Part shown: in pieces, positions 9,890 through 34,225 of the stretch
Layout: each line of letters starts with the position of its first letter
Numbering within the stretch: the stretch's first letter is position 1
From: a bacterium
Lineage (GTDB): Bacteria > SZUA-182 > DTGQ01
DNA: 37,626 nt
Reading direction: 5' to 3'
NCBI GenBank assembly: GCA_040755755.1
Contig: JBFLZW010000005.1
Span: 1 to 37,626 of the forward strand
The notes under the pieces: generated by a model
Database searches by the model: none
Told to the model about the DNA's origin: nothing
The model's input: only the letters and a program-made list of their open reading frames with translations
Position numbers and translations under genes: made by a program

Positions 9890-9972
9890 AGCGAGAGGGC
9901 AATGACTGATTGGAAAGGAATTAACTTTCAATTGGCCTCCTAATGACTTTATTTGAGGTGGTAAAGCCAGCC

Positions 9973-10002
9973 TTGACAATCCGACAGGTGATCATTTATG
10001 AT
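9973..10002 (+). promoter_or_regulatory. Promoter of the Rpn-family gene
   Basis: TTGACA (9973-9978), an 18-base spacer, and TATGAT (9997-10002). Only nine bases separate the -10 box from ATG 10012, so this transcript too may be leaderless or nearly so. Confidence 0.6.
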
Positions 10003-10011
10003 GAAAGTATC

Positions 10012-11060
10012 ATGGATGAGGTTATCAAATCACCCCACGATATTTTCATCAAAGAAGTTCTGAGTAACAGGGAAAATGCCAGGGATTTTTTTTTCAACTA
10101 CCTCCCTGCGCAGGTTCAGGCTATAGTGGACATGAAGAGCCTGGAGATATGTAAGGATTCCTTTGTCGAAAAGGAACTGCGGGAATACTTCTCCGAGCTG
10201 CTCTATCGGCTCAACCTGATGGGTGAAAGTGAAGAAGAGCAGCAGCCAGGCTATTTGTATCTGCTCTTTGAGCACAAGAGTACACCGGAGCGATGGATTG
10301 CTTTTCACCTGTTGCGGTATCAGGTCCGAATCTGGGAATTATACCTGAAGCAGTATACTCAAGCCAGGTATTACCGGTGATTATCCCCCTGGTGCTCTAC
10401 CACGGTCAGGAGAAGTGGAGGATAGGGACCCGGCTGTCTGATCTTATCCCCCAAGGCCAGAGAGAGGAACTTAAGCCCTATGTTCCTGACTTCTCATACC
10501 TTTTATGCGATATACCAGCCTGTCCTGATGATCAGATTCGTGGCATGGCTATCCTGCGGGTATCCCTTCTGCTGCTCAAGTACATCCATCATCCTGATCT
10601 GGCCAGGCATTTGCAGTGGATATTCTCCTTACTGAAGGATATGATTCAGTCAGGGGCAGCAGGGCAGGAATTTATGGACTGGCTGGAGAGTGCTTTCCGC
10701 TATATCTTTCATGCCAGTGAGCGGGTGAGTGTGGAGGAATTAAAAATAATAGTCGAGAAATCTCTCGATAAACACAAGGAGGGGATCGTCATGACCCTAG
10801 CCGAACAATTAATCCAAAAAGGTGTACAGCAGGGACTACAGCAAGGATGGCAGCAGGGTGAACAGAAAGGTGAACAGAAGGGTGAAGTAAAAAAGGCCAG
10901 GGAGGATGTGGTGAATGTTCTGGAAATCCGCTTTGGTGATATCCCTTTATCTTTCAAGGAAAAACTGGCAGGTATCTATGATCTGGCCATTCTGGATGAT
11001 CTGCTGCGAAAGGCTGTGACTGCTGCTTCTTTGGCTGAAATGGAAGAAATGATACGGTAG
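10012..11060 (+). pseudogene. Rpn-family PD-(D/E)XK nuclease / YhgA-like protein, frameshifted
   Basis: Two overlapping frames together make one Rpn-like protein. The first (from ATG 10012, ending at 10380) reads MDEVIKSPHDIFIKEVLSN, then LYLLFEHKSTPERWIAFHLLRYQVRIWE. The second continues LPVIIPLVLYHGQEKW and ends with a Gln/Gly-rich tail (GVQQGLQQGWQQGEQKG) and a C-terminal helical part. The break is at 10371-10372: one extra T in the T-run would give QARYLPVIIPLVLYHG without interruption. D/E and EHKS residues of the nuclease core are in the first half. Rpn proteins are DNA nucleases linked to recombination and phage defence. It looks like a recent one-base loss or a sequencing error. An in-frame upstream start (9943) is less likely, because the promoter overlaps it. 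Confidence 0.85.
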
Positions 11061-17385: not shown

Positions 17386-17478
17386 TCATTGATCTTCAAT
17401 CCGTCGAAGGTTTCGCGCATTCCGGATGGAGCGGTTGGAGTAAAAAAACAGGTTGTTAACCCCCCAGCAGGAATTGGT

Positions 17479-18852
17479 ATGGCCAGAAAGAATGTTCTTT
17501 TAGTTGATGACGAAAAATCTATCCATGAGATCTTTGCTGAATATTTTGACAGCAAGTCTTATAGGTTAATCAGTGTCTTCAATGGGAACGATGCCCTGCA
17601 GAAGGTCGAACAGGAGAAGGTCGATATTGTTCTTCTCGATATCAACATGCCTGGCATCAATGGACTGGAAACACTCAAAGAGCTCAAAAAAATCGATTCC
17701 CAGCTCATTGTCATTATTATAACCGGCTATGGGACAGCGGACACAGCCATCGATGCCATGAAGTGCGGCTGCTATGATTATGTTACCAAACCCTTCCGCC
17801 TGCCGGAGATTAAAAATGTTATCGAGGCCGCCCTCATTGACAAGGCCTACAACAAAAAAAATAAAATTACCAGTTCTCTTCTTCCCTATCAGTCCGGTTC
17901 AATTCCTATTATCGGACGAAGCAAAAAGATGCAGGAGGTATACCGGCTTATTGCCAGGGTAATTAATACCGACTCAACCGTACTGATTCAGGGAGAAAGC
18001 GGTACCGGCAAGGATCTGGTAGCCCGGATTCTCCATTGCAATGGCCCGCGGGCCAATAAACCATTTATCACGGTCAATTGTGCGGCTATCCCCGAAGCTC
18101 TCCTCGAAAGCGAGCTTTTCGGCCATGAAAAAGGCGTCTACACCGGGGCACACATCGCCAGGAGAGGGAAATTCGAGCAGGCTGACGGGGGGACGATATT
18201 CCTGGACGAAATCGGTGATATGAGCCTGAATACTCAGGCCAAAATCCTCCGGGTCATGCAGAGTAAAACATTCACCCGGATCGGAGGAGAGAAAAACATT
18301 TACGCCGATGTACGGCTGATCACCGCTACCAACAAAGAGCTGCGAAAGGCCATGAAAGAAGGGTTGTTCCGCGAGGACCTTTTCTACCGGCTGGATGTGC
18401 TCTCGCTGACCCTTCCCTCCCTGAGAGAGAGAAAAGAGGACATCCCCGATCTCATCAACTATTTCATTGCCCGCTATAATGACAGCATCAACAAAAAGGT
18501 TTCCTTTGTCTCTCCGGATGCTATGGATATGCTCATGGGGCATGACTGGCCCGGCAATGTCCGGGAACTGGAACACGCTATCGAGCATGCCATTGTTCTG
18601 GCCAATGGGTATGTGCTGCTGCCTGAGCACCTGCCCGACAGCCTCAAGATACAGACGCAAAAGACTACTTCCATTTCACTCGACCTGGGGCTTTCCCTCG
18701 AGGAAGTGGAAAAATTCTATATCCAGGAAACCCTGAAAATGGTCAATGGAAATCAAACCAAGGCAGCCAATATCCTCCAGGTCCATCGAAATACCCTCCA
18801 TCGCCTGATGGAAAAGATGGACATCCGGTTCTCCAAAGGCGACTACGCCTGA
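17479..18852 (+). CDS. NtrC-family sigma-54-dependent response regulator
   Basis: A 457-residue product from ATG 17479 (AGGAA upstream); the frame is open from 17389, but that extension has no ribosome site. Receiver: residues 5-118, phosphorylation site D54 (VLLDINMPG). AAA+ domain: about 142-370, Walker A GESGTGKD (172-179), Walker B FLDEIGD (241-247). C-terminal Fis-type helix-turn-helix: about 405-450 (NQTKAANILQVHRNTLHRLM). It should activate sigma-54 promoters when phosphorylated. The sigma-54 contact loop reads GVYTGA (219-224) instead of GAFTGA, an uncommon double change. No partner kinase is adjacent; the kinases at 28331-31796 are candidates. Confidence 0.94.
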   Translation: MARKNVLLVDDEKSIHEIFAEYFDSKSYRLISVFNGNDALQKVEQEKVDIVLLDINMPGINGLETLKELKKIDSQLIVIIITGYGTADTAIDAMKCGCYDYVTKPFRLPEIKNVIEAALIDKAYNKKNKITSSLLPYQSGSIPIIGRSKKMQEVYRLIARVINTDSTVLIQGESGTGKDLVARILHCNGPRANKPFITVNCAAIPEALLESELFGHEKGVYTGAHIARRGKFEQADGGTIFLDEIGDMSLNTQAKILRVMQSKTFTRIGGEKNIYADVRLITATNKELRKAMKEGLFREDLFYRLDVLSLTLPSLRERKEDIPDLINYFIARYNDSINKKVSFVSPDAMDMLMGHDWPGNVRELEHAIEHAIVLANGYVLLPEHLPDSLKIQTQKTTSISLDLGLSLEEVEKFYIQETLKMVNGNQTKAANILQVHRNTLHRLMEKMDIRFSKGDYA

Positions 18853-19922: not shown

Positions 19923-20864
19923 CTAGCGCAGCCAATAGGGTTTTTTAATTTCCTCAAAAGCATGTACTGCGGCAGTAATTCCTTCAGCGCAGGCAGTAGC
20001 TATCAGCCTGATTTCTCCGGTAATGTCTCCGGCTGCAAATATACCCTTGATATTCGTCTGAAGGTCCCTGCCGACTTTTATCGAGCCATCCTCCTGGACG
20101 ATGAATCCATTACTCTCCAGAAAACGCTTGATCGGTTCAAAACCTATGGCCACGAACAGCTCTTCAGCCCTGATATTTTCTGTCTCCCCCGTCTCGAGAT
20201 TTGTCACCAGGATGCTCTGGAGCAGGCCGGACCTGTTTTTGAATATTTTCACCGGGGTCGTATTGTAGAGCACCTTTATCCCTGCGCTTTCTGCAAGTTT
20301 AACCGTATGCTCCTTCGCCTTGGCATACTTTTCCTTCACCAGGACCGTAGTGCTCCCGGCAGTATCGCTTAACTGGATTGCAGTATCGAAGGCATGATCT
20401 CCTCCTCCCACAATCACCACCTGTTTTCCCCTGAACCTGGCCGGGACTTCCACCCGGTAGTGAACATTGGGACCGGTATAGCTCTTCAGGACATCCAGCT
20501 TCTTGGGAACGTTGTAGGTTCCGGTACAGACGATAACCCTCTTGGCCTGATACACATCCTGGGTAGTCTTTACTTCGATAAGATTTTCATCTTTCTTGTC
20601 TATCTTGAGTACCTCCTCATCGCACCGGATCTCCGCTCCGGCGTTCCTGGCCTGCATGACGAGCATCCTGCTGAGCTCTCTGGCCAGTATGCCTATCGGA
20701 AAACCGGGATGGTCCCGGATAATCTTATCAGGGTAAACAAGCATGGGCAAGCCACCCGGGGTAGCCTGTTTATCGAATACCAGGCTCTTCAACCCCCGGT
20801 GAGAAGTGTTTGCCGCGGCCGTTAAACCGGCAGGACCTGCACCTATTATGATTACGTCATACAT
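19923..20864 (-). CDS. TrxR-like ferredoxin/flavodoxin-NADP+ reductase
   Basis: About 313 residues. FAD site GAGPAGLTAA (residues about 8-17), NAD(P)H site VVIVGGGDHAFDTA (about 150), and the C-terminal FAD motif GIFAAGDITGE. The CxxC redox pair of thioredoxin reductases is missing, and the N-terminal part (GGLPMLVYPDKIIRDHPGFP) resembles YumC-type reductases. It probably moves electrons between NADPH and a ferredoxin or flavodoxin. ATG 20864 is chosen; a TTG six bases upstream is possible, since the ribosome-site region is duplicated (20866-20901). It is followed by no co-directional partner, and cheB ends about 200 bases upstream. Confidence 0.82.
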   Translation of the reverse strand: MYDVIIIGAGPAGLTAAANTSHRGLKSLVFDKQATPGGLPMLVYPDKIIRDHPGFPIGILARELSRMLVMQARNAGAEIRCDEEVLKIDKKDENLIEVKTTQDVYQAKRVIVCTGTYNVPKKLDVLKSYTGPNVHYRVEVPARFRGKQVVIVGGGDHAFDTAIQLSDTAGSTTVLVKEKYAKAKEHTVKLAESAGIKVLYNTTPVKIFKNRSGLLQSILVTNLETGETENIRAEELFVAIGFEPIKRFLESNGFIVQEDGSIKVGRDLQTNIKGIFAAGDITGEIRLIATACAEGITAAVHAFEEIKKPYWLR

Positions 20865-20865
20865 T

Positions 20866-20901
20866 GACAATCAATTTGTCCCTGCCAATCAATTTATCCC
20901 T
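20866..20901 (-). repeat. 18-bp tandem duplication of the ribosome-site region
   Basis: On the minus strand AGGGAYAAATTGATTG occurs twice in a row, directly before the reductase start. Sixteen of eighteen bases agree. Each copy carries an AGGGA site and TTG codons. Confidence 0.75.
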
Positions 20902-21067: not shown

Positions 21068-22593
<1,526 letters not shown>

Positions 22594-22634: not shown

Positions 22635-23429
22635 TTACACCTTCTGGTAGATGGAGGGTTGGACATACCGGAATCCGGCAGCCATGCCGAGGAGGCTTTC
22701 CGAATGTCCAACCATCAGGTATCCTGAAGTTTTCAGCAGCCGGTGAAATCGGTCGATAATTTTTCTGCGTCCCTGGTCATCGAAATAAATCATGACATTC
22801 CGGCAGAAGATCGCATCCAGAGGACCGCGAAAGGGGTATTCAGCACCCTGGAGATTGAGATAGTTGAAAACAACCATTTTCCGGACAAATTCCCGGACCT
22901 CTACCCTGTCTTCTCCGGCAGGTTGAAAATATTTGCTTTCCTGAACCGGAAGATTGGCCAGTTTTCGTTTCTCATAGATACCTTTTCTGGCTTTGTTTAA
23001 AACCTGCCGTGAGATATCCGTGGCCAGGATCTTCGCATCCAGAAACCTTTCCCCTCCCAGGGCTTCCAGGATAGTAATGGCTAAAGAGAAGGGTTCCTCA
23101 CCCGTCGAGCATCCGGCGGACCAGAACCGGAATGTCCGCTGACCTGCCCTGAACCATTCCCTGGTGGTCGAGGTTATGAAATCGAAATGGTCCTTTTCCC
23201 GGAAAAAGCTGGTGACATTCGTTGAAATGACATCTACCAGGGAAAACAATTCTTCCTTTTTCGGGTCCCTGACCACATACTCGTAATAGTCCTGGTAGTC
23301 GGCAATGCCCAGAGCATGCATCCGTTTGGCCAGGCGGGCCCGGACCAGTTCCTTCTTGCTCTCTCCGAGGTTGATCCCGCTGTGAGCGTAAATCAGGGCT
23401 GCATATTTGTGAAAGGTCTGATCATCCAT
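22635..23429 (-). CDS. cheR: Chemoreceptor methyltransferase CheR
   Basis: A 264-residue product. The N-terminal helical domain (about 1-75) is followed by the SAM-binding domain with WSAGCSTGEEPFSLA (motif I), ILATDIS and CRNVMIYFD. It methylates glutamates of the receptor coded directly upstream. It follows mcp after 33 bases and precedes cheD after 41 bases, in one operon. The ribosome site is weak. Confidence 0.96.
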   Translation of the reverse strand: MDDQTFHKYAALIYAHSGINLGESKKELVRARLAKRMHALGIADYQDYYEYVVRDPKKEELFSLVDVISTNVTSFFREKDHFDFITSTTREWFRAGQRTFRFWSAGCSTGEEPFSLAITILEALGGERFLDAKILATDISRQVLNKARKGIYEKRKLANLPVQESKYFQPAGEDRVEVREFVRKMVVFNYLNLQGAEYPFRGPLDAIFCRNVMIYFDDQGRRKIIDRFHRLLKTSGYLMVGHSESLLGMAAGFRYVQPSIYQKV

Positions 23430-23462: not shown

Positions 23463-25457
23463 CTAGCCATTGAAATCCGTGAAATCGTTATCATCGAGGG
23501 GGATGATTTCCTCCGGCTTGACCACCCTTCCTTCCTTGGGAGCAGCCTGAATCTTCGTCCTTCTCTCGATCATTCCTCCTCGTGCAGGACCTGTTGGACC
23601 GGCTATCCTGGGGGGCCGCAGTCGAGGAGGACCGGTCTCATCGGCCAGGATTATTTCCCGTGCAGAAGGGATCGTGTCGCCCCCGACAAGCCGGGTCAGG
23701 TCATCCACCATTGCCTTGAGATTTTCGGACTGAAGATGAAGTTTTTCAGAAGATGCGGCTCCTTCCGCGGCACCGGCTGCATTTTGCTGAGTCACTTTAT
23801 CCATCTGGCTGATAGCTACGTTGACCTGATCGATCCCCTGGGCCTGCTCTTTGGAGGCGGCGGCGATCTCACTGACCAGATCGGCTACCTTACCGGCGCT
23901 GCTCTCAACCCTGGCGAAAGCTTCAAAGGTGCGCCTGGCAAGACTGGAGCCATCATTGATCTTGTGGACCGCATCTTCAATCATGCCGGAAGTATTCCTG
24001 GCCGCTTCGGCTGCCCTCTGAGCCAGGTTGCGGACTTCGTCGGCCACCACGGCAAACCCCTTGCCTGCCTCGCCGGCCCTGGCAGCCTCGACCGCTGCAT
24101 TGAGGGCCAGCAGATTGGTCTGGAAGGCGATCTCGTCAATGGTCTTGATGATTTTGCCAATCTCCTCACTGGCAGTGGAAAGCTCGGTCATGGATTGGTC
24201 CATGGCCTTCATCGACTGACCGGCCTGTTCGACCACCCCCTTGGTTTCCTCCATCAACTGGTTGGCCTGGTGGGCATGGTCGGCATTATTTTTGGTCATG
24301 GAAGTGATCTCCTCGAGAGAGGCCGAGGTCTCCTCCAGGGAGGCAGCCTGCTCGGAGGCCCCTTCTGCCAACTGCTGACTGGATGAGGATATCTGCTCGG
24401 AAGCGGTATACACCTGCTGAGCGCCATTGGACAGGGTGGCAATAATCCGCCGCAGGGGGACGACGATATTTTGAGACAGCAGGAAGGCCATCAGGCCGCC
24501 GATAATCAGGGCAAGCAGGGCGGTTATCGGGATGAATTTACTGACAAACGAGGAAAAGGAACTGTACTGCTCCTGGAAGGTTTTTTCCTTTTTATCCAGG
24601 ATACTTTCTATTTCATCCATATAACCGAGAACCAGATCCGTATTTTTTTGAGTTGAATTCTGAAAAATCTGCATCGCCTGGTTATTTTTCTCAATTATGT
24701 TATCGATGTGCCTCATGGTCTCCTGGTAGCAGAGACCGAGCTGATCGAGAGCGGGCAGGGTTTCCCGTTCGTAAATCAGCATGGCTTTGCTTCTGTCCCC
24801 GCTTTCATTGGCCTCGATAATTTTCTGGGCTGAATTATGAAGGGCTTCATGGGGGGATGCCCATTTTTTCAGCAGGGACTCAAGCTCCGGATCATCCGTC
24901 CGGTACGTATAATACCATTGGCCGAAAGCACATTGGTGAGGATTCAGTGATCCGGTAAACTTCTTTCCGGTCATCAGATAGTCTCTCAGATCGTTAGCCC
25001 AGGTCAGGTGATCAATCCATCGCTCTGCCAGCAGGGCATCGTTTTTCTGATCGAATTTAGTAAATAAGCTGCCGATCTGTTTGGCTGAATCGTGCAATTC
25101 ACGGTGAGGCTGTTTGATCTTTTCCAGAAGAGAGTGTATTCCCGGATCGATCCTGGCCATTTGGTCGGCTTGTTCACTATAGAGCCATTTTCCGAATGTA
25201 CACTGGTGGTCATCGGTCTGAACGTTCAGTCTGTCCACGTCTTTTCTCAGGAAAATATCGGATACGGTATTGACCCAGGCCAGATGTTTGATTTTTGCAT
25301 CATGGAGCCGGATGCCTTCGGTGGCAGCGATCTTGCTGGCCTCTTCCAGAGTTCCCATCCGGTGGATGGAATAGTAGCTGATACCTCCCATGGCCAGTAA
25401 AAGCACAAGAATCACTGCAAATCCAATCCAGATTCTCTTCCCTATGGTATCGAACAT
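23463..25457 (-). CDS. Methyl-accepting chemotaxis protein with two tandem extracytoplasmic CZB domains
   Basis: A 664-residue product. Membrane spans at about 8-29 and 308-330 enclose the sensor. The sensor holds two CZB zinc-binding domains that both fit HxxW-x(21-28)-CxFGxW-x(18-27)-HxxxH: H58/C86/H118/H122 and H150/C176/H203/H207. The cytoplasmic part has the hairpin tip [21 protein letters not shown] minus its first residues, and flexible methylation helices. The C-terminal tail ends in an acidic/aromatic stretch ([12 protein letters not shown]) that may tether CheR or CheB. CZB domains are usually cytoplasmic, so two between membrane spans are unusual. The ATG overlaps the cheW stop (TAATG). 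Confidence 0.95.
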
Positions 25458-26029
25458 TATTTTTCCTCCTCCCTCTGCTCTTCATCGAGAGAACTCCGCA
25501 TATCCTTATCACCACACTGGTCTGATTTCAGACTCTCCATCAGCAGCATGCCCTCGGCGTTCAGAACCTGGTTGATATCCAGCAGAATGACTACCTTGCC
25601 TTTGGCTTTGGCCATTCCCATGATGTATTCCGTATCCAGCTTTACTCCGAAATTAGGAGTCTCCTCCATCTCTTCCTTTCTGATATTCATGACTTCGGAC
25701 ACCGAATCCACTACCATACCCATAGGTATCGACCCTGATCTGCCTTTGATTTCGGTGACAATGATGCAGGTGCGGTCAGTGTGTTCCAGGAATTCCATGC
25801 CGAACTTCAGCCGCAGATTGACCACCGGGATAATCTTTCCCCGCAGGTTGATTACACCCTCGACATAAGCAGGAGTTTGCGGTACTGTCGTGACTTCCAT
25901 GGCCCCGATGATTTCCTTCACCTTCATGATTTCCAGTCCATACTCCTGATGAGCCAGGGTAAAAGTCAGATATTTTCCCTCTCTTGCGGCCAAGGCATGA
26001 TTATTCTTTTCCAACAGCGCTTCCGCCAT
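25457..26029 (-). CDS. cheW: Chemotaxis adaptor CheW
   Basis: A 190-residue product with one CheW domain (about 17-160): [22 protein letters not shown], then [19 protein letters not shown], both typical. It bridges CheA and the receptor. The ribosome site GGGGAGG lies six bases before ATG 26029. The charged C-terminal tail (DEEQREEEK) is not part of the domain. It is coupled to mcp downstream by a TAATG overlap; cheA lies 134 bases upstream across a repeat block. Confidence 0.95.
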
Positions 26030-26052
26030 GGTGTACCTCCCCTCTCTTCAGA

Positions 26053-26163
26053 TAAGTGGTCAGTGATCAGTGGTCAGTGGTCAGTGGCCAGTGCTTTTCT
26101 CTGTGCCTCTGTGTCTCTGTGGTTTCTTTGTCTTTGCCTTTGCTTTGGTCTTTGCTTTTGTCT
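26053..26163. repeat. AGTGGTC heptamers plus CTGTG/TTTGYC repeats between cheA and cheW
   Basis: Five to six steps of AGTGGTC/AGTGATC (26053-26094) are followed by CTGTGCCTCTGTGTCTCTGTG and then by six-base steps of the type CTTTGC/CTTTGT up to the cheA stop. No gene fits here. Confidence 0.8.
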
Positions 26164-27981
26164 TTAAGCCGCATCCCCACGATAGTGAGAAGAATAATAT
26201 TCGAGCAATCCATGAGCATCCAGGATCAGTCCCACCCGGCCATCGGCCAGAATTGCCCCTCCGGAAACGCCCATGAGCCCCTGAAAGGCTTCACCGAGTG
26301 ATTTAATGACCACCTGCTGCTGGCCAATGAGGTTATCCACCAAAAATCCGACCCGGTTTGATCCGTCACGGATAACCATGACCAGCCCCTGGTCGAAATC
26401 CTCCTCCAGGTTTTTGGTCAGAGTGCCCATGCCCAGGAGCCGGTCAAGGTCGATCAGGGGAATTATCGAATCACGCAGGTGCAGGGCCTTCCCCCGGTTG
26501 TGACAGACAACGATCTGTTCTTTTTTGGGTTTCAGGGATTCCTCGATGCAATAGGTGGGAAAGATATAGCGCTCTCCTCCCGATTGAACCAGCATGCCGT
26601 CAATAATGGCCATGGTCAGGGGAAGCCGGATACTGAAGGTGCTCCCTTCCCCTTCGGTGCTTTCCAGTGAGACTACTCCCCGCAGGGACCCGATCTTTTT
26701 CTTGACCACGTCCATTCCCACGCCACGGCCTGAAATATCGGTAATTTTTTCGGCTGTGGAAAAACCGGGATGGAAGATAAAATTGAATATCTCCTCCCGT
26801 GAATACTCCTTTCCCTCAACGATAAGCTCTTTCTGCCGGGCTTTTTCCAGAATCTTCTTTTCGGACAGGCCCCGGCCGTCATCCCTGACTTCAATGACGA
26901 CATTTCCCGCCTCATGCCGGGCCTCCAGATAGATATTACCCACTTTGTCCTTTCCCAGAGCTTCCCGCTGTTCCGGATCCTCAATTCCATGATCCACGGC
27001 ATTGCGCAGCATATGAACCAGGGGATCGCCAAGAGTATCGATTACCTGCTTGTCCAGCTCGGTTTCCTCACCCCGCAGCGTAACCTTCACCGTTTTACCG
27101 GCCTTGCGGCTCACATCCCGCACCAGTCTCTCCATTTTCTGGAACAGAGGACGGATCGGCAGCATGTGCATTGACATGGTCAGGTTTTGCAGCTCTCTGG
27201 TGATTTTGCTCAGGTGAGCAATGTTCTTGCTTAACTTCTGATCATGAACTTCGCTGCTGGCTACCTGAATCTGGGCAATTACCAGTTCCCCGACCAGATC
27301 GACCAGACTGTCGAGCTTATCGACACTGACCCTGATCCCCTCCTCAGTCTGAGGTTTTCTGCTTTCCGCTGTCTGGGTATTTTTCTGCTCCCGGATGGCT
27401 TTGACAACATCTTTCGTTTCCGCCTTTCCGGAGCGGATCAATACTTCTCCAATCTTGCCCGGCTCTCCTTCGGCCTGCTTCTGGAGCGCTTCCTTGACAT
27501 CCTCTTCGCTGACAGTTCCCTGCTCCACCATGATCTCGCCAATCTTCCTGCCGTCTTCCTCCCCGGCTTCATCATTCATGGTGGTGGCCAGCTCCAGCCT
27601 GCTGACCAACTGGGCCACCTCATGTGGTACTTCTTCCTGCGACAGGCTTCCCTCGTTCACTTCGTTTTGAATCTTATTTACCAGTTTTCGGAGCACATCC
27701 ACTGTTTCAAAGAGCATATCGATCACTACGGAACGCAGGACAGTTCCCTTATCTCTGGCCGTTACCAGGATGCTTTCCGCCACATGAGTCAACTGGCCGA
27801 TGGCCACAAAATTAAAAAATCCAGCCACACCTTTGATGGTATGAATAGGCCGGAAAGCCGCATTGATAACCTCCTTGTCTTTGGGTCTTTCCTCCAGGGA
27901 CAAAAGAGCCATGTCCACATTATCCAGGTGCTCCTTTGCCTCGGCACAAAATTCCAGGATAAGGTCTGCATCCTCAATCAT
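26164..27981 (-). CDS. cheA: Chemotaxis histidine kinase CheA with MshEN-like repeats in the P2 position
   Basis: A 605-residue product. P1/HPt: about 1-105, phosphorylated H47 (HTIKG). P3 dimerisation: about 216-275. P4 kinase: N box HMLRNAVDHG, G1 DDGRGL and G2 GRGVGMDVV. P5 CheW-like: about 465-600. Instead of a classical P2, residues 146-169 and 176-199 are two 24-residue repeats, beginning KIGEIMVEQG and KIGEVLIRSG and ending in L/IxxQ. They fit the spacing of the MshEN c-di-GMP-binding motif, with Lys for the first Arg. The ribosome site is AGGTGAGGGG before ATG 27981. It is the first gene of the che operon, with the sensor kinase at 28331 divergent from it. Confidence 0.96.
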   Translation of the reverse strand: MIEDADLILEFCAEAKEHLDNVDMALLSLEERPKDKEVINAAFRPIHTIKGVAGFFNFVAIGQLTHVAESILVTARDKGTVLRSVVIDMLFETVDVLRKLVNKIQNEVNEGSLSQEEVPHEVAQLVSRLELATTMNDEAGEEDGRKIGEIMVEQGTVSEEDVKEALQKQAEGEPGKIGEVLIRSGKAETKDVVKAIREQKNTQTAESRKPQTEEGIRVSVDKLDSLVDLVGELVIAQIQVASSEVHDQKLSKNIAHLSKITRELQNLTMSMHMLPIRPLFQKMERLVRDVSRKAGKTVKVTLRGEETELDKQVIDTLGDPLVHMLRNAVDHGIEDPEQREALGKDKVGNIYLEARHEAGNVVIEVRDDGRGLSEKKILEKARQKELIVEGKEYSREEIFNFIFHPGFSTAEKITDISGRGVGMDVVKKKIGSLRGVVSLESTEGEGSTFSIRLPLTMAIIDGMLVQSGGERYIFPTYCIEESLKPKKEQIVVCHNRGKALHLRDSIIPLIDLDRLLGMGTLTKNLEEDFDQGLVMVIRDGSNRVGFLVDNLIGQQQVVIKSLGEAFQGLMGVSGGAILADGRVGLILDAHGLLEYYSSHYRGDAA

Positions 27982-28005
27982 AAGTGCCCCTCACCTCTCT
28001 TTTTA

Positions 28006-28032
28006 TAAGTGGTCAGTGGTCAGTGGTCAGTA
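28006..28032. repeat. AGTGGTC heptamer repeats before cheA
   Basis: TAAGTGGTCAGTGGTCAGTG plus further bases, three to four exact seven-base steps. They lie 25 bases upstream of the cheA start, inside its leader or promoter. Confidence 0.85.
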
Positions 28033-28150
28033 AAGACATGCATGAGTGGAAAAACTGATAACTTCTTCCTGATATTTCTTTACGGTTAAAAAGCAAAGAG
28101 ACTTCTGAAAATTTATGCTGTACCGGCTGAGAACTTAACTTTTCCAGAGA

Positions 28151-28215
28151 AGTCAGGAGTCAGGAGTCAGAATCCAGAATAAGCAATCATCCCCTCCTGA
28201 CTCCTGACTCCCGAC
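28151..28215. repeat. AGGAGTC heptamer foldback between cheA and the sensor kinase
   Basis: AGTCAGGAGTCAGGAGTCAG (28151-28170) pairs with the inverse heptamers in 28194-28212. It is the same type as the terminator at 6544-6617. Between two divergent genes it cannot be a normal terminator, so its presence points to a mobile or slippage origin. The rest of 27982-28330 shows no gene. Confidence 0.75.
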
Positions 28216-28330
28216 CCCCGAACAGTATTGTTGCCTAAAACGAGTAAAATAGCAGCAAAACCGATGATATCTCTCCATTTTCCGAATAATAAAGCAACTC
28301 AGCCCCTGATTACCTGTATGATGGTAGACC

Positions 28331-30334
28331 ATGAAAATAAAAAGCTTCACCCAAAAGATCGTAATCGGTTTTCTGGCAGTGCTCCTTTTGATGGTTATCC
28401 TTGCTTCTGTTTCCTATCATGCTTTCACCAAAATGGAACGACTGTCACAGGAGCTGAACCAGATGCTTTTGCTGGACATGTTTCTGGATGAAAGCATGGG
28501 CTCCCATCGGAAGTGGATGAACGACCTGGCCCAAACCTTTCTGTTGAACCGGAAATTTCAGGGGAGCCTTGATCCTCATAAGTGTGAATTCGGCAAATGG
28601 TATCACTCCTTTCAGTCATCGGACGATAAAATTATGGAAATACATAAAAAGATCGATAAACCCCACCATATCCTCCACGAGTCGGCCAAACAGATCCTCG
28701 ATCTTCTTTATGAACCTGGCCGGCAAAGAGATATTGCCCACCTGCTGGATGAGGAAAAGAATGAGCACATGCTCTGGTTTTTTACCTTTTCCAGGGTCAT
28801 GGAGAAACAGGAAAAAATCCCTCTTGCCTTTCTGGAGATGAGAAGCTGCTCGATAGATCGCTTATATGAAAGTTTTTCGGCAGGCGATGGCAAGGGAATG
28901 GTTTATCTGCAACCGTTAAGAAAATCTCATCAGCGTCTCCATGAGCTTTCACAGCAGGCGATTCACCTGGCCCAACAGGGCAGGTGGAAAGAGGCAAAGA
29001 GGTTATATAGCCAGGATATCCGGCTGGCCAATAAAGATGTCTTGGATTATTTTTTCAGATTGGATATATTGGTCCATCAACGGATTAAAGGCAACCAGCA
29101 GGCAAGGGAGATCTATGCCCGCCTCACCATTCCAGCCATGGAAGAGCTCCAGCACCTGGTTGATCAGATACGGTCCAGCCTCATGGCCAGGATTGGCAGG
29201 CTGGAAAATGAATACCAGCAGGTAGCGGGAAGATCGAAAAAATTCATCGTCTGGGCTACACTTTTCGTCATCTCTCTGGCCATACTTTGCAGCTTGCTCA
29301 TTCCTCCAGGCCTCACCAGACCGATCAGGCACCTTACGCAGTTTGCCAACCGGATCGCGAGCGGAGGAGACCTGTCGGAAACCATCCGGATTGAGAACCA
29401 GGATGAAATCGGCCAGCTTGCCTCCTCGTTTAACCGGATGATTCAAGCTCTGCGAAAGTCGAGAGAAGAGCTGGAAGAGTGGGGAAAGACCCTGGAGAAG
29501 AAAGTGGAAACTCGAACCAGAGATCTGAAGGATGCCTACCGGCAGCTTGAAATGACCCAGGGTCAACTGGTGCAGTCATCCAAGCTGGCCTCTATCGGAG
29601 AGCTGGCTGCCGGCATGGCCCACGAGATAAATAATCCCATGACTGTCATTGTCGGCTATTCGGAATTGCTGCTCGATGAGGTCACGCCTGGTACGGAAAA
29701 CCATGTCTATGTTCAGGGAATACTTGAAGCAGGCCAGAGGATCAGCATGATTATCAGAAACCTTTTGACCTTTGCCCGGCAGGGCACTCAGGAAAGGAGC
29801 CGGGCATCTATCCCTGTTCTGATCGACCGTGCGCTTTCGTTCATGGAAAAACGCATGGAAAAAGATGGTATCCGGATCGAGCGCGATTACGAACCTGGCC
29901 TTCCTGACATTTATGTCCGAATGGGTCAACTGGGACAGGTATTCCTCAACCTGATTATCAACGCCAGGGATGCCTTACTGGAAAAGTCAGAAACTGCATC
30001 CGGGGATTTTGCCAAGGTATTGAAGGTCCAGGTCCGTAAGGTTGAGGAAAATGATATTCCGGCAATCCGGATCACCTTCCGGGATACAGGGGCAGGGATA
30101 AAACCGGAAAACCTGAGCCGGGTGTTTGATCCCTTCTTCACCACAAAAAGAGAGGATAAAGGAACAGGTCTGGGACTGAGCATCAGCTACGGGATTATCA
30201 AAGACCATCAGGGGAGCATTCGGGTGGAAAGCCGGGAGGGAGAATACACGATGTTCACGATTGATCTGCCGGCAAACCAGATTTCCTCCTGCTCCAAGGA
30301 AAGAGGAGAGCATGAAAGACATTCTCTTAATTGA
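28331..30334 (+). CDS. Membrane histidine kinase with two tandem extracytoplasmic CZB domains
   Basis: A 667-residue product. Membrane spans: about 8-29 and 304-325. CZB1: H59, C85 (CEFGKW), H112 and H116, a full match. CZB2: H146 (HMLW), C173, H200 and H204 keep the spacing and all four ligands, but CxFGxW has become CSIDRL. Then HAMP (about 327-380), a coiled coil, HisKA with H431 (MAHEINNPM) and a HATPase with N, G1 (DTGAGI) and G2 (GTGLGLS) boxes. It overlaps the next kinase by 23 bases. The probable signal is metal or oxidant at the envelope, as for other CZB proteins. Confidence 0.94.
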   Translation: MKIKSFTQKIVIGFLAVLLLMVILASVSYHAFTKMERLSQELNQMLLLDMFLDESMGSHRKWMNDLAQTFLLNRKFQGSLDPHKCEFGKWYHSFQSSDDKIMEIHKKIDKPHHILHESAKQILDLLYEPGRQRDIAHLLDEEKNEHMLWFFTFSRVMEKQEKIPLAFLEMRSCSIDRLYESFSAGDGKGMVYLQPLRKSHQRLHELSQQAIHLAQQGRWKEAKRLYSQDIRLANKDVLDYFFRLDILVHQRIKGNQQAREIYARLTIPAMEELQHLVDQIRSSLMARIGRLENEYQQVAGRSKKFIVWATLFVISLAILCSLLIPPGLTRPIRHLTQFANRIASGGDLSETIRIENQDEIGQLASSFNRMIQALRKSREELEEWGKTLEKKVETRTRDLKDAYRQLEMTQGQLVQSSKLASIGELAAGMAHEINNPMTVIVGYSELLLDEVTPGTENHVYVQGILEAGQRISMIIRNLLTFARQGTQERSRASIPVLIDRALSFMEKRMEKDGIRIERDYEPGLPDIYVRMGQLGQVFLNLIINARDALLEKSETASGDFAKVLKVQVRKVEENDIPAIRITFRDTGAGIKPENLSRVFDPFFTTKREDKGTGLGLSISYGIIKDHQGSIRVESREGEYTMFTIDLPANQISSCSKERGEHERHSLN

Positions 30335-31796
30335 TGATGAACCTGGAATTCGCCTTACCTTTTCCCGGATGCTGGAAAAGGAAGGGTATACGGTCAGGAC
30401 CGCTTCCAATTTTCAGGAAGCTCAGGAAATCCTGCACAACCATAACCTGGATGTGGTCGTCAGCGATATTCTTATTCCCGGCACAAGCGGTATCGAAGTG
30501 CTGAAGCTGGTCAAGGATTACTCTCCTGACATGCCGGTTATCATGATTACCGGAGAACCCAATATTGACACGGCCATTGAGTCAGTCCGTCAGGGAGCCT
30601 ACGATTATCTTTCCAAACCGATCAGCCGTCAGCAGTTGTGCGGAGCTGTAGCCAGAGCCATAGAGAGAAAGTGGCTTACCGATGAGCGAAAAAGGCTGGA
30701 AGAGGAAAATCTGAGGTATCGGAAGGAGCTGGAGGATAAGGTCAGGGAACGGACCCGTGCTCTGGAAGAGCTTAATACCTTTATCAATAATGTCATCGAA
30801 AGCATTTCATCCGCTTTGATCGCGCTGGACCTTTCAGGGAGTATCACCATGGTCAATACCCATGCTTTTGAGTTCCTGCAGGGAAAAAGCAGAGCGGAAA
30901 TCATCGGGAAAAATTACCAGCAGGTATTTCCGAAGGACCTGGCTCAGGCTTTGCACAAGGTCATTCAGGAGGAGGACTGGATGCACTCTCATGAATTTGA
31001 GCTGGGAGATCAGACTCTCGGCTACAGTGTTTCACTCCTCCTGGATAATGAGCAGAAGGTCAAAGGGAATGTAATTATCATGCGAGATATTTCAGAAAAA
31101 AAGAAGCTTGAGCAGGAGCTGATCCAATCGGAAAAATTAGCAACCCTTGGCCTTCTGGCCGGAAAAATCAGCCATGAGATGGGAAATCCTTTGTTTGGCA
31201 TCCTTGGCTATGCAGAGCTTCTGGAGGCAAAATATCCGAAAGAAAAATATATCAGGCTCATGATCAATCAGGCCCTTCGCCTGAAAAAAATGACCAAGGA
31301 TCTTTTGACTATCAGTAAACCCAAACCGCCCCTGATCAGCTCGGTTGACATAAATAAAGTCCTGGTGGAAACCCTGGATTTTCTGCGGGATGTCACCGGC
31401 CAGATCAAATATCATGAGATCGTCCAGGAATATTATCCTCAACTGCCCTTGATTCAGGGCGATGAGGAGCAGCTCAAGCAGGTTTTCATCAACCTGATCG
31501 TCAATGCTTCTCAAGCCATGAAGAATCAGTCTCAGAAAAACATCCTGACCGTAGGGACAGGCATAGCTGAAGAGGGAAAAATGGTGATGGCTCTCGTCCA
31601 GGATACCGGCTGCGGAATTGCACCCGCAGATATTGACCGGATCTTCGATCCCTTCTACACCACGAAAGGCGAGGAAGGAACAGGCCTGGGTATGGCTGTG
31701 ATCCGGGAGATTATCAATAAACATCATGACCGGATGCATATTGAAAGCCGGATAGGAGAAGGAACCAGGGTCACAGTTCTGCTGCCGGTGAAGTGA
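30312..31796 (+). CDS. Receiver-PAS-histidine kinase
   Basis: A 494-residue product from ATG 30312 (AGAGGAG upstream), overlapping the sensor kinase by 23 bases. Receiver: 1-118, D52 (VVSDILIPG). Coiled coil: about 120-155. PAS: about 155-265. HisKA: H288 (KISHEMGNPL). HATPase: about 375-492 with N, G1 (DTGCGI) and G2 (GTGLGM) boxes. It has no membrane span. Its receiver is the likely target of the CZB kinase upstream, and its own H288 would pass the signal to a regulator. None is adjacent; the NtrC-like protein at 17479 is a candidate within the window. Confidence 0.92.
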   Translation: MKDILLIDDEPGIRLTFSRMLEKEGYTVRTASNFQEAQEILHNHNLDVVVSDILIPGTSGIEVLKLVKDYSPDMPVIMITGEPNIDTAIESVRQGAYDYLSKPISRQQLCGAVARAIERKWLTDERKRLEEENLRYRKELEDKVRERTRALEELNTFINNVIESISSALIALDLSGSITMVNTHAFEFLQGKSRAEIIGKNYQQVFPKDLAQALHKVIQEEDWMHSHEFELGDQTLGYSVSLLLDNEQKVKGNVIIMRDISEKKKLEQELIQSEKLATLGLLAGKISHEMGNPLFGILGYAELLEAKYPKEKYIRLMINQALRLKKMTKDLLTISKPKPPLISSVDINKVLVETLDFLRDVTGQIKYHEIVQEYYPQLPLIQGDEEQLKQVFINLIVNASQAMKNQSQKNILTVGTGIAEEGKMVMALVQDTGCGIAPADIDRIFDPFYTTKGEEGTGLGMAVIREIINKHHDRMHIESRIGEGTRVTVLLPVK

Positions 31797-33245: not shown

Positions 33246-34094
33246 TTAAAAATGTCCCTTTTCCGCTTCATAGCTGGCTTGAACCGTTTCAGCCAGCCGG
33301 AGGATGTCCGGTTCGCCGATCTTCAGAATATGGACTGATTGGAGGGCTTGAAAATCGGTATCCTCGCGGGGCTGGCGGTATCCAATCCCCAGGTAAATAC
33401 ACAGCATATCGGCAAGGTTGATCAGAGCGGCAAACTTCAGTATATCCACCTCCAGAGGATCGATGTCCGAAAGACTATGATGGTAGGTCACCGCATCTTC
33501 CAATTCCCGTGAGAGGTTCCACTTCTTCACGATCAGGCCGCCTACTTCGGCATGAGTAAAACCCAGCCTCTCTCTCTCAACCTCTGCAAAGGGCAGATCA
33601 TCGTTATAAGCCGTCTGGACAATCTCACTGAAAACCTCATTCATCTGATTATTCAGGATAGTCTTTCCGATATCATGCATCAATCCGCCGACAAAGGCCT
33701 CTTCAGTGTGGCAGCAAAGCTCCCTGGATAAGATGTGGGCAGCAATGGCTGCGCCGATCGAGTGTTCCCAGAGCATCTTTTCGGTCAGATTTATCCGGCG
33801 GTAAAAACTCTTGAGAGATGCGGCCAAAGCCAGCGTCTTTATTCCCTTGAATCCGATTAAAACAATAGCCGCAGCTACGGTATTGACGCTTCGGATACAC
33901 CCATAAAAGGAGGAATTGGCGATTTTTAAAATCTGAGCGGTCAGTGCCTGATCAGCCAGAATGGCCCGTTCCAGAACTTTGGAATCCGTATCGGGATTCG
34001 AGGCTAAAGATACGATCCGGCTGGCTACCAGCGGCATGGGAGGAAGATCACAGGTGGAGTCAATAACGGCTTTCAATTCCTTGTGCATGGACAT
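33246..34094 (-). CDS. HDOD-domain signalling protein
   Basis: About 282 residues from ATG 34094, with GGAGG ten bases upstream; the in-frame extension to 34157 lacks support. The HDOD domain spans about 10-210: LPPMPLVASRIVSLASNP, ALTAQILKIANSSFYG, and the HD-like motif GGLMHDIGKTIL. HDOD proteins are often regulators in motility, chemotaxis or c-di-GMP pathways, and most lack enzyme activity. It is monocistronic here. Its stop codon TAA merges with the start of an AGTGGTC repeat block, so the C-terminus may have been set by that repeat. Confidence 0.9.
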   Translation of the reverse strand: MSMHKELKAVIDSTCDLPPMPLVASRIVSLASNPDTDSKVLERAILADQALTAQILKIANSSFYGCIRSVNTVAAAIVLIGFKGIKTLALAASLKSFYRRINLTEKMLWEHSIGAAIAAHILSRELCCHTEEAFVGGLMHDIGKTILNNQMNEVFSEIVQTAYNDDLPFAEVERERLGFTHAEVGGLIVKKWNLSRELEDAVTYHHSLSDIDPLEVDILKFAALINLADMLCIYLGIGYRQPREDTDFQALQSVHILKIGEPDILRLAETVQASYEAEKGHF

Positions 34095-34225
34095 AGCTTT
34101 AGAGCCTCCTTGAAAACTTGACCGGATAAACGAACCATACCCAGCGGTCAGGTTCACGGTTACTCTTACTGAATATCATAAAGCATCGGGCAAGGCAACC
34201 CCCAATCCTGCTCATGGTTCAATTT

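Follow-up and report, generated by a model that had tools for sequence, protein, structure and literature searches.

Positions 1-37,626 of contig JBFLZW010000005.1 (assembly GCA_040755755.1, from a bacterium of GTDB lineage Bacteria; SZUA-182; DTGQ01), called the window below, encode a chemoreceptor and a histidine kinase that each carry two CZB domains between two membrane spans. On balance, and with modest confidence, we favour the view that both proteins sense zinc occupancy in the periplasm, as a read-out of zinc supply and redox state, through two stacked CZB modules, and that they are wired together much as the Che3 system and the CrdS/CrdA pair are in Myxococcus xanthus. The suggestion is built on features of the sequence: four CZB domains, a metal site of three His and one Cys, a periplasmic topology, and a single conserved locus that holds all of the CZB genes.

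Zinc is bound in CZB domains by three His and one Cys, and loss of the zinc or oxidation of the Cys alters the output of TlpD, DgcZ and McpA (PMC6715182, PMC8262984, PMC12871147, PMC13370339). The two proteins of the window are laid out as follows (aa, amino acids; TM1 and TM2, first and second transmembrane spans; MCP, methyl-accepting chemotaxis protein).

23463-25457, minus strand: chemoreceptor, 664 aa, in the order TM1, CZB1, CZB2, TM2, MCP signalling domain (Pfam, hydropathy)
25377-25433, minus strand: receptor TM1, aa 9-27 (Kyte-Doolittle)
25074-25286, minus strand: receptor CZB1, aa 58-128, with H58, C86, H118 and H122 (PF13682, 58.1 bits)
24816-25010, minus strand: receptor CZB2, aa 150-214, with H150, C176, H203 and H207 (PF13682, 56.2 bits)
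24534-24794, minus strand: long descending helix of the receptor, aa 222-308, leading back to TM2 (AlphaFold2 model, helix 222-345)
24477-24533, minus strand: receptor TM2, aa 309-327 (Kyte-Doolittle)
23790-24254, minus strand: receptor MCP signalling domain, aa 402-556 (PF00015, 2.8e-46)
28331-30334, plus strand: histidine kinase, 667 aa, in the order TM1, CZB1, degenerate CZB2, TM2, HAMP, HisKA, HATPase (Pfam, hydropathy)
28358-28414, plus strand: kinase TM1, aa 10-28 (Kyte-Doolittle)
28505-28699, plus strand: kinase CZB1, with H59, C85, H112 and H116 (PF13682, 57.6 bits)
28766-28963, plus strand: kinase CZB2, decaying, with H146, C173, H200 and H204 and the FGxW lid lost (PF13682, 22.7 bits)
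29246-29302, plus strand: kinase TM2, aa 306-324 (Kyte-Doolittle)
29312-29455, plus strand: kinase HAMP (PF00672, 2.5e-13)
29597-29785, plus strand: kinase HisKA (PF00512, 4.2e-17)
29927-30277, plus strand: kinase HATPase_c (PF02518, 1.1e-21)

A first-pass annotation of this DNA had named the His and Cys residues of two CZB domains in each protein, and every one of them is found where it was placed. The domain assignment itself is borne out for three copies: with the Pfam CZB profile (PF13682, curated cut-off 29.4 bits), each receptor copy passes on its own (E 6.2e-30 for the two stretches together) and so does the first kinase copy, while the second kinase copy falls below the cut-off (22.7 bits, E 6e-4; the two kinase stretches together give E 1.1e-19). 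Exactly four PF13682 matches occur in the genome, all within these two genes of one conserved locus, in keeping with the earlier proposal that receptor and kinase share a type of sensor. No HAMP domain was matched by Pfam in the receptor.

Two hydrophobic spans flank the CZB pair in both proteins on the Kyte-Doolittle scale. All four CZB domains are placed in the periplasm, on the envelope side as first suggested: they lie between the spans, the signalling parts (MCP and kinase) have to be in the cytoplasm, and the Omp85/BamA-type proteins encoded in the genome point to an outer membrane. The receptor therefore belongs with the periplasmic CZB chemoreceptors, being an MCP of an outer-membrane cell with its CZB domains between TM1 and TM2. 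The AlphaFold model of its sensor is a stack of helices with a mean predicted local distance difference test score (pLDDT) of 94.5, in which helix 222-345 runs unbroken into TM2. In Foldseek this model matches the crystal structure of the DgcZ CZB domain (3T9O) with probability 1.00 (TM-score 0.71 on the target, root-mean-square deviation 3.0, 115 columns), and the H, C-x-F-G-x-W and H-x-x-x-H elements align with the zinc-site motif of 3T9O in a profile built from kinase and receptor sensors (E 0.0096); a profile of the receptors alone gave no sequence match to that structure. Fold and ligand motif are thus shared with DgcZ, whose CZB differs in that it is cytoplasmic, occurs once and is attached to a diguanylate cyclase.

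Is the doubled, envelope-side sensor peculiar to this locus? That idea must be given up, since chemoreceptors with two or three CZB domains are found in many other genomes. Relatives were sought by scanning a single genome from each species, by whole-genome searches and by direct reading of open reading frames (ORFs). Among the 271 distinct CZB ORFs, periplasmic chemoreceptors with one, two and three copies number 74, 60 and 12, which are not frequencies because the first scan was seeded with the tandem sensor. Hosts of the two- and three-copy forms include Thermodesulfobacteriota, Myxococcota, Bacteroidota, Planctomycetota, Kiritimatiellota, Zixiibacteriota, Omnitrophota, Auribacterota, Sumerlaeota and members of the Nitrospirota group. 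When 33 tandem receptors from many phyla were aligned, the ligand set was complete in 31 of them for CZB1 and in 32 for CZB2. A scan of viral contigs turned up no relative, and the six sensors, when aligned together, proved too diverse to serve as query for contigs. In the sections of the survey of Perkins et al. (2021) considered here, 384 putative periplasmic CZB domains are counted, N-terminal and between the two spans of an MCP, with the C-x-x-G lid motif, as in the window; copy number is not described in those sections, whereas here two copies are stacked and both sites are conserved (PMC8262984). Although widespread, this tandem periplasmic variant of CZB has been little described.

Several of these relatives depart from the simple pattern. 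In 14 sensors of tandem length (median 292 residues between the spans; for example L025:5285-7195 from genome G002, and L153, L154, L158 and L171), only the distal CZB is recognisable. Three receptors (L058:8590-11043, L074:5857-8286 and L164:2032-4686) have CZB domains at about residues 60 and 330 and TM2 near residue 478, and the wide gap suggests that they have at least three modules, the middle of which is silent. One tandem periplasmic CZB receptor (L071:190-2739) continues through HAMP and the MCP domain into a C-terminal hemerythrin domain, an oxygen/redox domain. Receptors of the Nitrospirota group (L235:1584-3881, L237:827-3313 and L238:2677-5181) end in a Cys-rich domain without a Pfam match (CWE...C...CW..TGT.C...C..C), possibly a metal or redox module.

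The distance between the spans has a median of 160, 286 and 409 residues in sensors with one, two and three CZB domains, or about 125 residues more per domain. TM1 and the first CZB are separated by a constant 26-31 residues, and the stretch from the last CZB to TM2 measures 61, 95 and 131 residues, so that each added domain accounts for about 91 residues outward and about 35 on the return. These stepwise lengths therefore fit modules stacked along one long return helix, and from them and the helix limits in the model we infer that CZB1 adjoins the membrane and CZB2 is distal. The same fixed steps would also suit an explanation that we consider unlikely, in which the CZB domains serve chiefly as structural spacers, stapled by zinc, within a long sensor stalk, the zinc is constant, and the signal is a solute, a partner protein or envelope strain. 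The affinity of CZB domains is sub-femtomolar (PMC8262984, PMC6715182), which is hard to square with direct zinc sensing, and one module may decay while the tandem length stays, as in the 14 sensors described above. A mere spacer sits poorly, however, with metal ligands, including the Cys, that are near-invariant in both modules while the rest of the sensor diverges, and TlpD, DgcZ and McpA signal through this same site (PMC6715182, PMC8262984, PMC13370339).

Receptor and kinase differ in how their sensors are conserved. In a sister species (G001), the divergent cluster is the same as in the window, and this is the arrangement that the first-pass annotation proposed to look for in other genomes; in a related genus (G003), receptor and kinase lie on two short contigs. 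Between window and sister species, the receptor is 67% identical in CZB1, 72% in CZB2 and 68% in the rest of the sensor, versus 71%, 30% and 53% for the kinase. (At the C-terminal end of the receptor, the last 14 residues are identical in the two species, though the linker before them differs.) The CZB1 ligands are intact in all three kinases. In CZB2, the window kinase keeps the four ligand letters, but its C-x-F-G-x-W lid is replaced by CSIDRLY; the sister-species kinase has Y, S, H and D where the window has H, C, H and H, so three of the four ligands are gone; and the G003 kinase still has all four. Judged from these comparisons of sequence, the second CZB site of the kinase is decaying and is probably losing metal binding, and the kinase probably reads mainly through CZB1. 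Several frame shifts interrupt the G003 kinase gene and the start of the next gene (L024:1200-2400), which may be assembly error or decay.

CZB sensors seem to be rare in histidine kinases. None was found among the 271 fetched ORFs beyond the window, sister-species and broken G003 genes, although divergent kinases could be missed by the classification used (phmmer with the window proteins plus motif checks, some ORFs being incomplete). A search with a sensor-plus-kinase profile was dominated by ordinary HAMP kinases, with few candidates scored per genome; its best sensor-covering matches proved to be chemoreceptors. In the literature we found no report of a CZB histidine kinase, and none of the seven groups into which Perkins et al. 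(2021) sort 10,140 CZB proteins is a histidine kinase (PMC8262984). In a whole-sensor tree, the kinases of the window, the sister species and G003 group as one clade (support 100), and a larger set (99) unites them with their own receptors and four others. Constraining the kinases together with their own receptors is not rejected (approximately unbiased test, p 0.58); a local domain swap is therefore possible, and the kinase may likewise have recently acquired a copy of the sensor of the receptor near it, a question for which a tree of CZB domains has too few columns.

Such a swap is central to another explanation to which we give little credence, namely that the kinase senses something other than the receptor does, the shared domains are simply the product of a domain swap, and the decay of CZB2 is drift to another role. 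The disparity between CZB2 and CZB1 in identity to the sister species would fit a separate signal, as would the low identity of the kinase and receptor sensors (about 20-24%) and the lower certainty of the kinase AlphaFold model around CZB2, where it is least (pLDDT 68-77). CZB1, however, is fully retained in all three kinases, and no CZB genes occur in the genome besides these two, which stand together in the sister species as well.

Returning to a zinc signal common to both proteins, the neighbouring genes suggest how it might be used. The Che proteins, the HAMP-HisKA kinase and an NtrC-type regulator are all encoded within the window (Pfam).

17389-18852, plus strand: NtrC-type sigma-54 response regulator, candidate output (Pfam)
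21068-22114, minus strand: CheB (PF01339, 5.9e-66, and REC)
22099-22593, minus strand: CheD (PF03975, 1.2e-21)
22635-23429, minus strand: CheR (PF01739, 1.2e-58)
25457-26029, minus strand: CheW (PF01584, 1.4e-37)
26164-27981, minus strand: CheA, with Hpt, dimerisation, HATPase and CheW-like domains (Pfam)
27982-28330, no strand: divergent intergenic region between cheA and the kinase gene, partly conserved in the sister species (ORF limits)
30261-31796, plus strand: REC-PAS-HisKA-HATPase protein, overlapping the end of the kinase gene, in the same order in the sister species (L022) (Pfam)
33246-34157, minus strand: HDOD protein, with a similar gene in the cluster of two relatives (L022, L023) (PF08668)

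The minus-strand order is cheB-cheD-cheR-receptor-cheW-cheA, followed on the plus strand by the kinase and the REC-PAS kinase (window ORFs, Pfam). Receptor, cheW and cheA form a single operon, and the kinase gene is divergent from cheA; the receptor and kinase genes are thus not back to back, as had been stated, but separated by cheW and cheA. A scan of the cheA/kinase intergenic region found no promoter. Both relatives, the sister species and G003, have the HDOD gene within the cluster. An NtrC-type regulator, often with a kinase, stands beside many of the che clusters with periplasmic CZB receptors. Just past cheB, adjoining the che operon, is a gene for a thioredoxin-reductase-like flavoprotein (19923-20870), and a YhgA-like putative transposase (PF04754) at 9943-11060 is split across two overlapping reading frames. 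Less probable than either alternative above is that the receptor acts in ordinary flagellar chemotaxis, with oxidants or zinc as stimulus, and that the kinase is linked to it by position alone. In favour of this, FliG is found in the genome and a YcgR-type PilZ protein is encoded in the window; against it, the scanned ORFs of the window include no CheY, and kinases and NtrC-type regulators flank the che set in the manner of che clusters with alternative functions. With FliG present, some flagellar output could nonetheless exist.

How might one sensor type feed both a chemosensory array and a kinase? On the shared-signal reading, binding or loss of zinc at the CZB sites would, in receptor and kinase alike, shift the return helix together with TM2, a movement proposed by analogy with TlpD, DgcZ and McpA. 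In the receptor, this shift would set the activity of CheA. TlpD and McpA likewise control CheA through a CZB of three His and one Cys; there, the domain is single, C-terminal and cytoplasmic, whereas that of the window receptor is tandem, N-terminal and periplasmic. In the kinase, the shift would act through HAMP and HisKA on the phosphorylation of a partner, for which the REC-PAS kinase and the NtrC-type regulator are candidates. The wiring could then resemble that of M. xanthus, in which the NtrC-like CrdA is acted on jointly by Che3 and by CrdS, a membrane HisKA kinase (PMC3510030). The window encodes comparable parts, namely Che proteins, a HAMP-HisKA kinase of the membrane and a sigma-54 regulator of NtrC-like type; the M. 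xanthus study reports no sensor shared by receptor and kinase (PMC3510030), and the partners in the window are putative. Rhodospirillum centenum offers a second parallel: its Che3 cluster has an extra receiver-kinase protein, CheS3, a receiver of which is phosphorylated by CheA3 (PMC3868531). The window differs in that its extra protein is a REC-PAS-HisKA-HATPase protein and that a second, CZB-bearing kinase is present. From the gene neighbourhood, the original suggestion of one signal feeding two pathways is plausible; the NtrC neighbours described above speak for the proposed wiring, and the hemerythrin fusion fits a redox or oxygen theme.

A number of observations weigh against this reading. 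The partners of the kinase are candidates only; about 9.5 kb separate the NtrC-type gene from the kinase gene, and the sister contig ends before that point. The lack of a CheY among the scanned ORFs of the window counts here too, as does the low identity between the two sensors. The Foldseek E-value of the receptor model to 3T9O is weak (0.18), and with the kinase model no CZB appeared in the top list. Finally, we found no report in the literature of any periplasmic CZB assayed for metal or signal.

More tentatively, and with considerable doubt on our part, CZB histidine kinases may be a new output class for CZB sensors. In this family, a periplasmic zinc or redox signal would then have two parallel readers, a chemosensory array and a two-component kinase, both built on one stacked-module design; modules, like rungs, would be added or silenced to set reach and sensitivity. 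Work on CZB domains has so far centred on single cytoplasmic domains. If the proposal is true, the known CZB outputs of chemotaxis and cyclic di-GMP would gain a two-component output. A widespread periplasmic form with one to three stacked zinc sites would meet environmental zinc and oxidants directly. Periplasmic CZB domains would thus be a clean setting for the question of whether oxidation acts directly or zinc serves as messenger, and the stacked series provides natural variants both in copy number and in which site lives.

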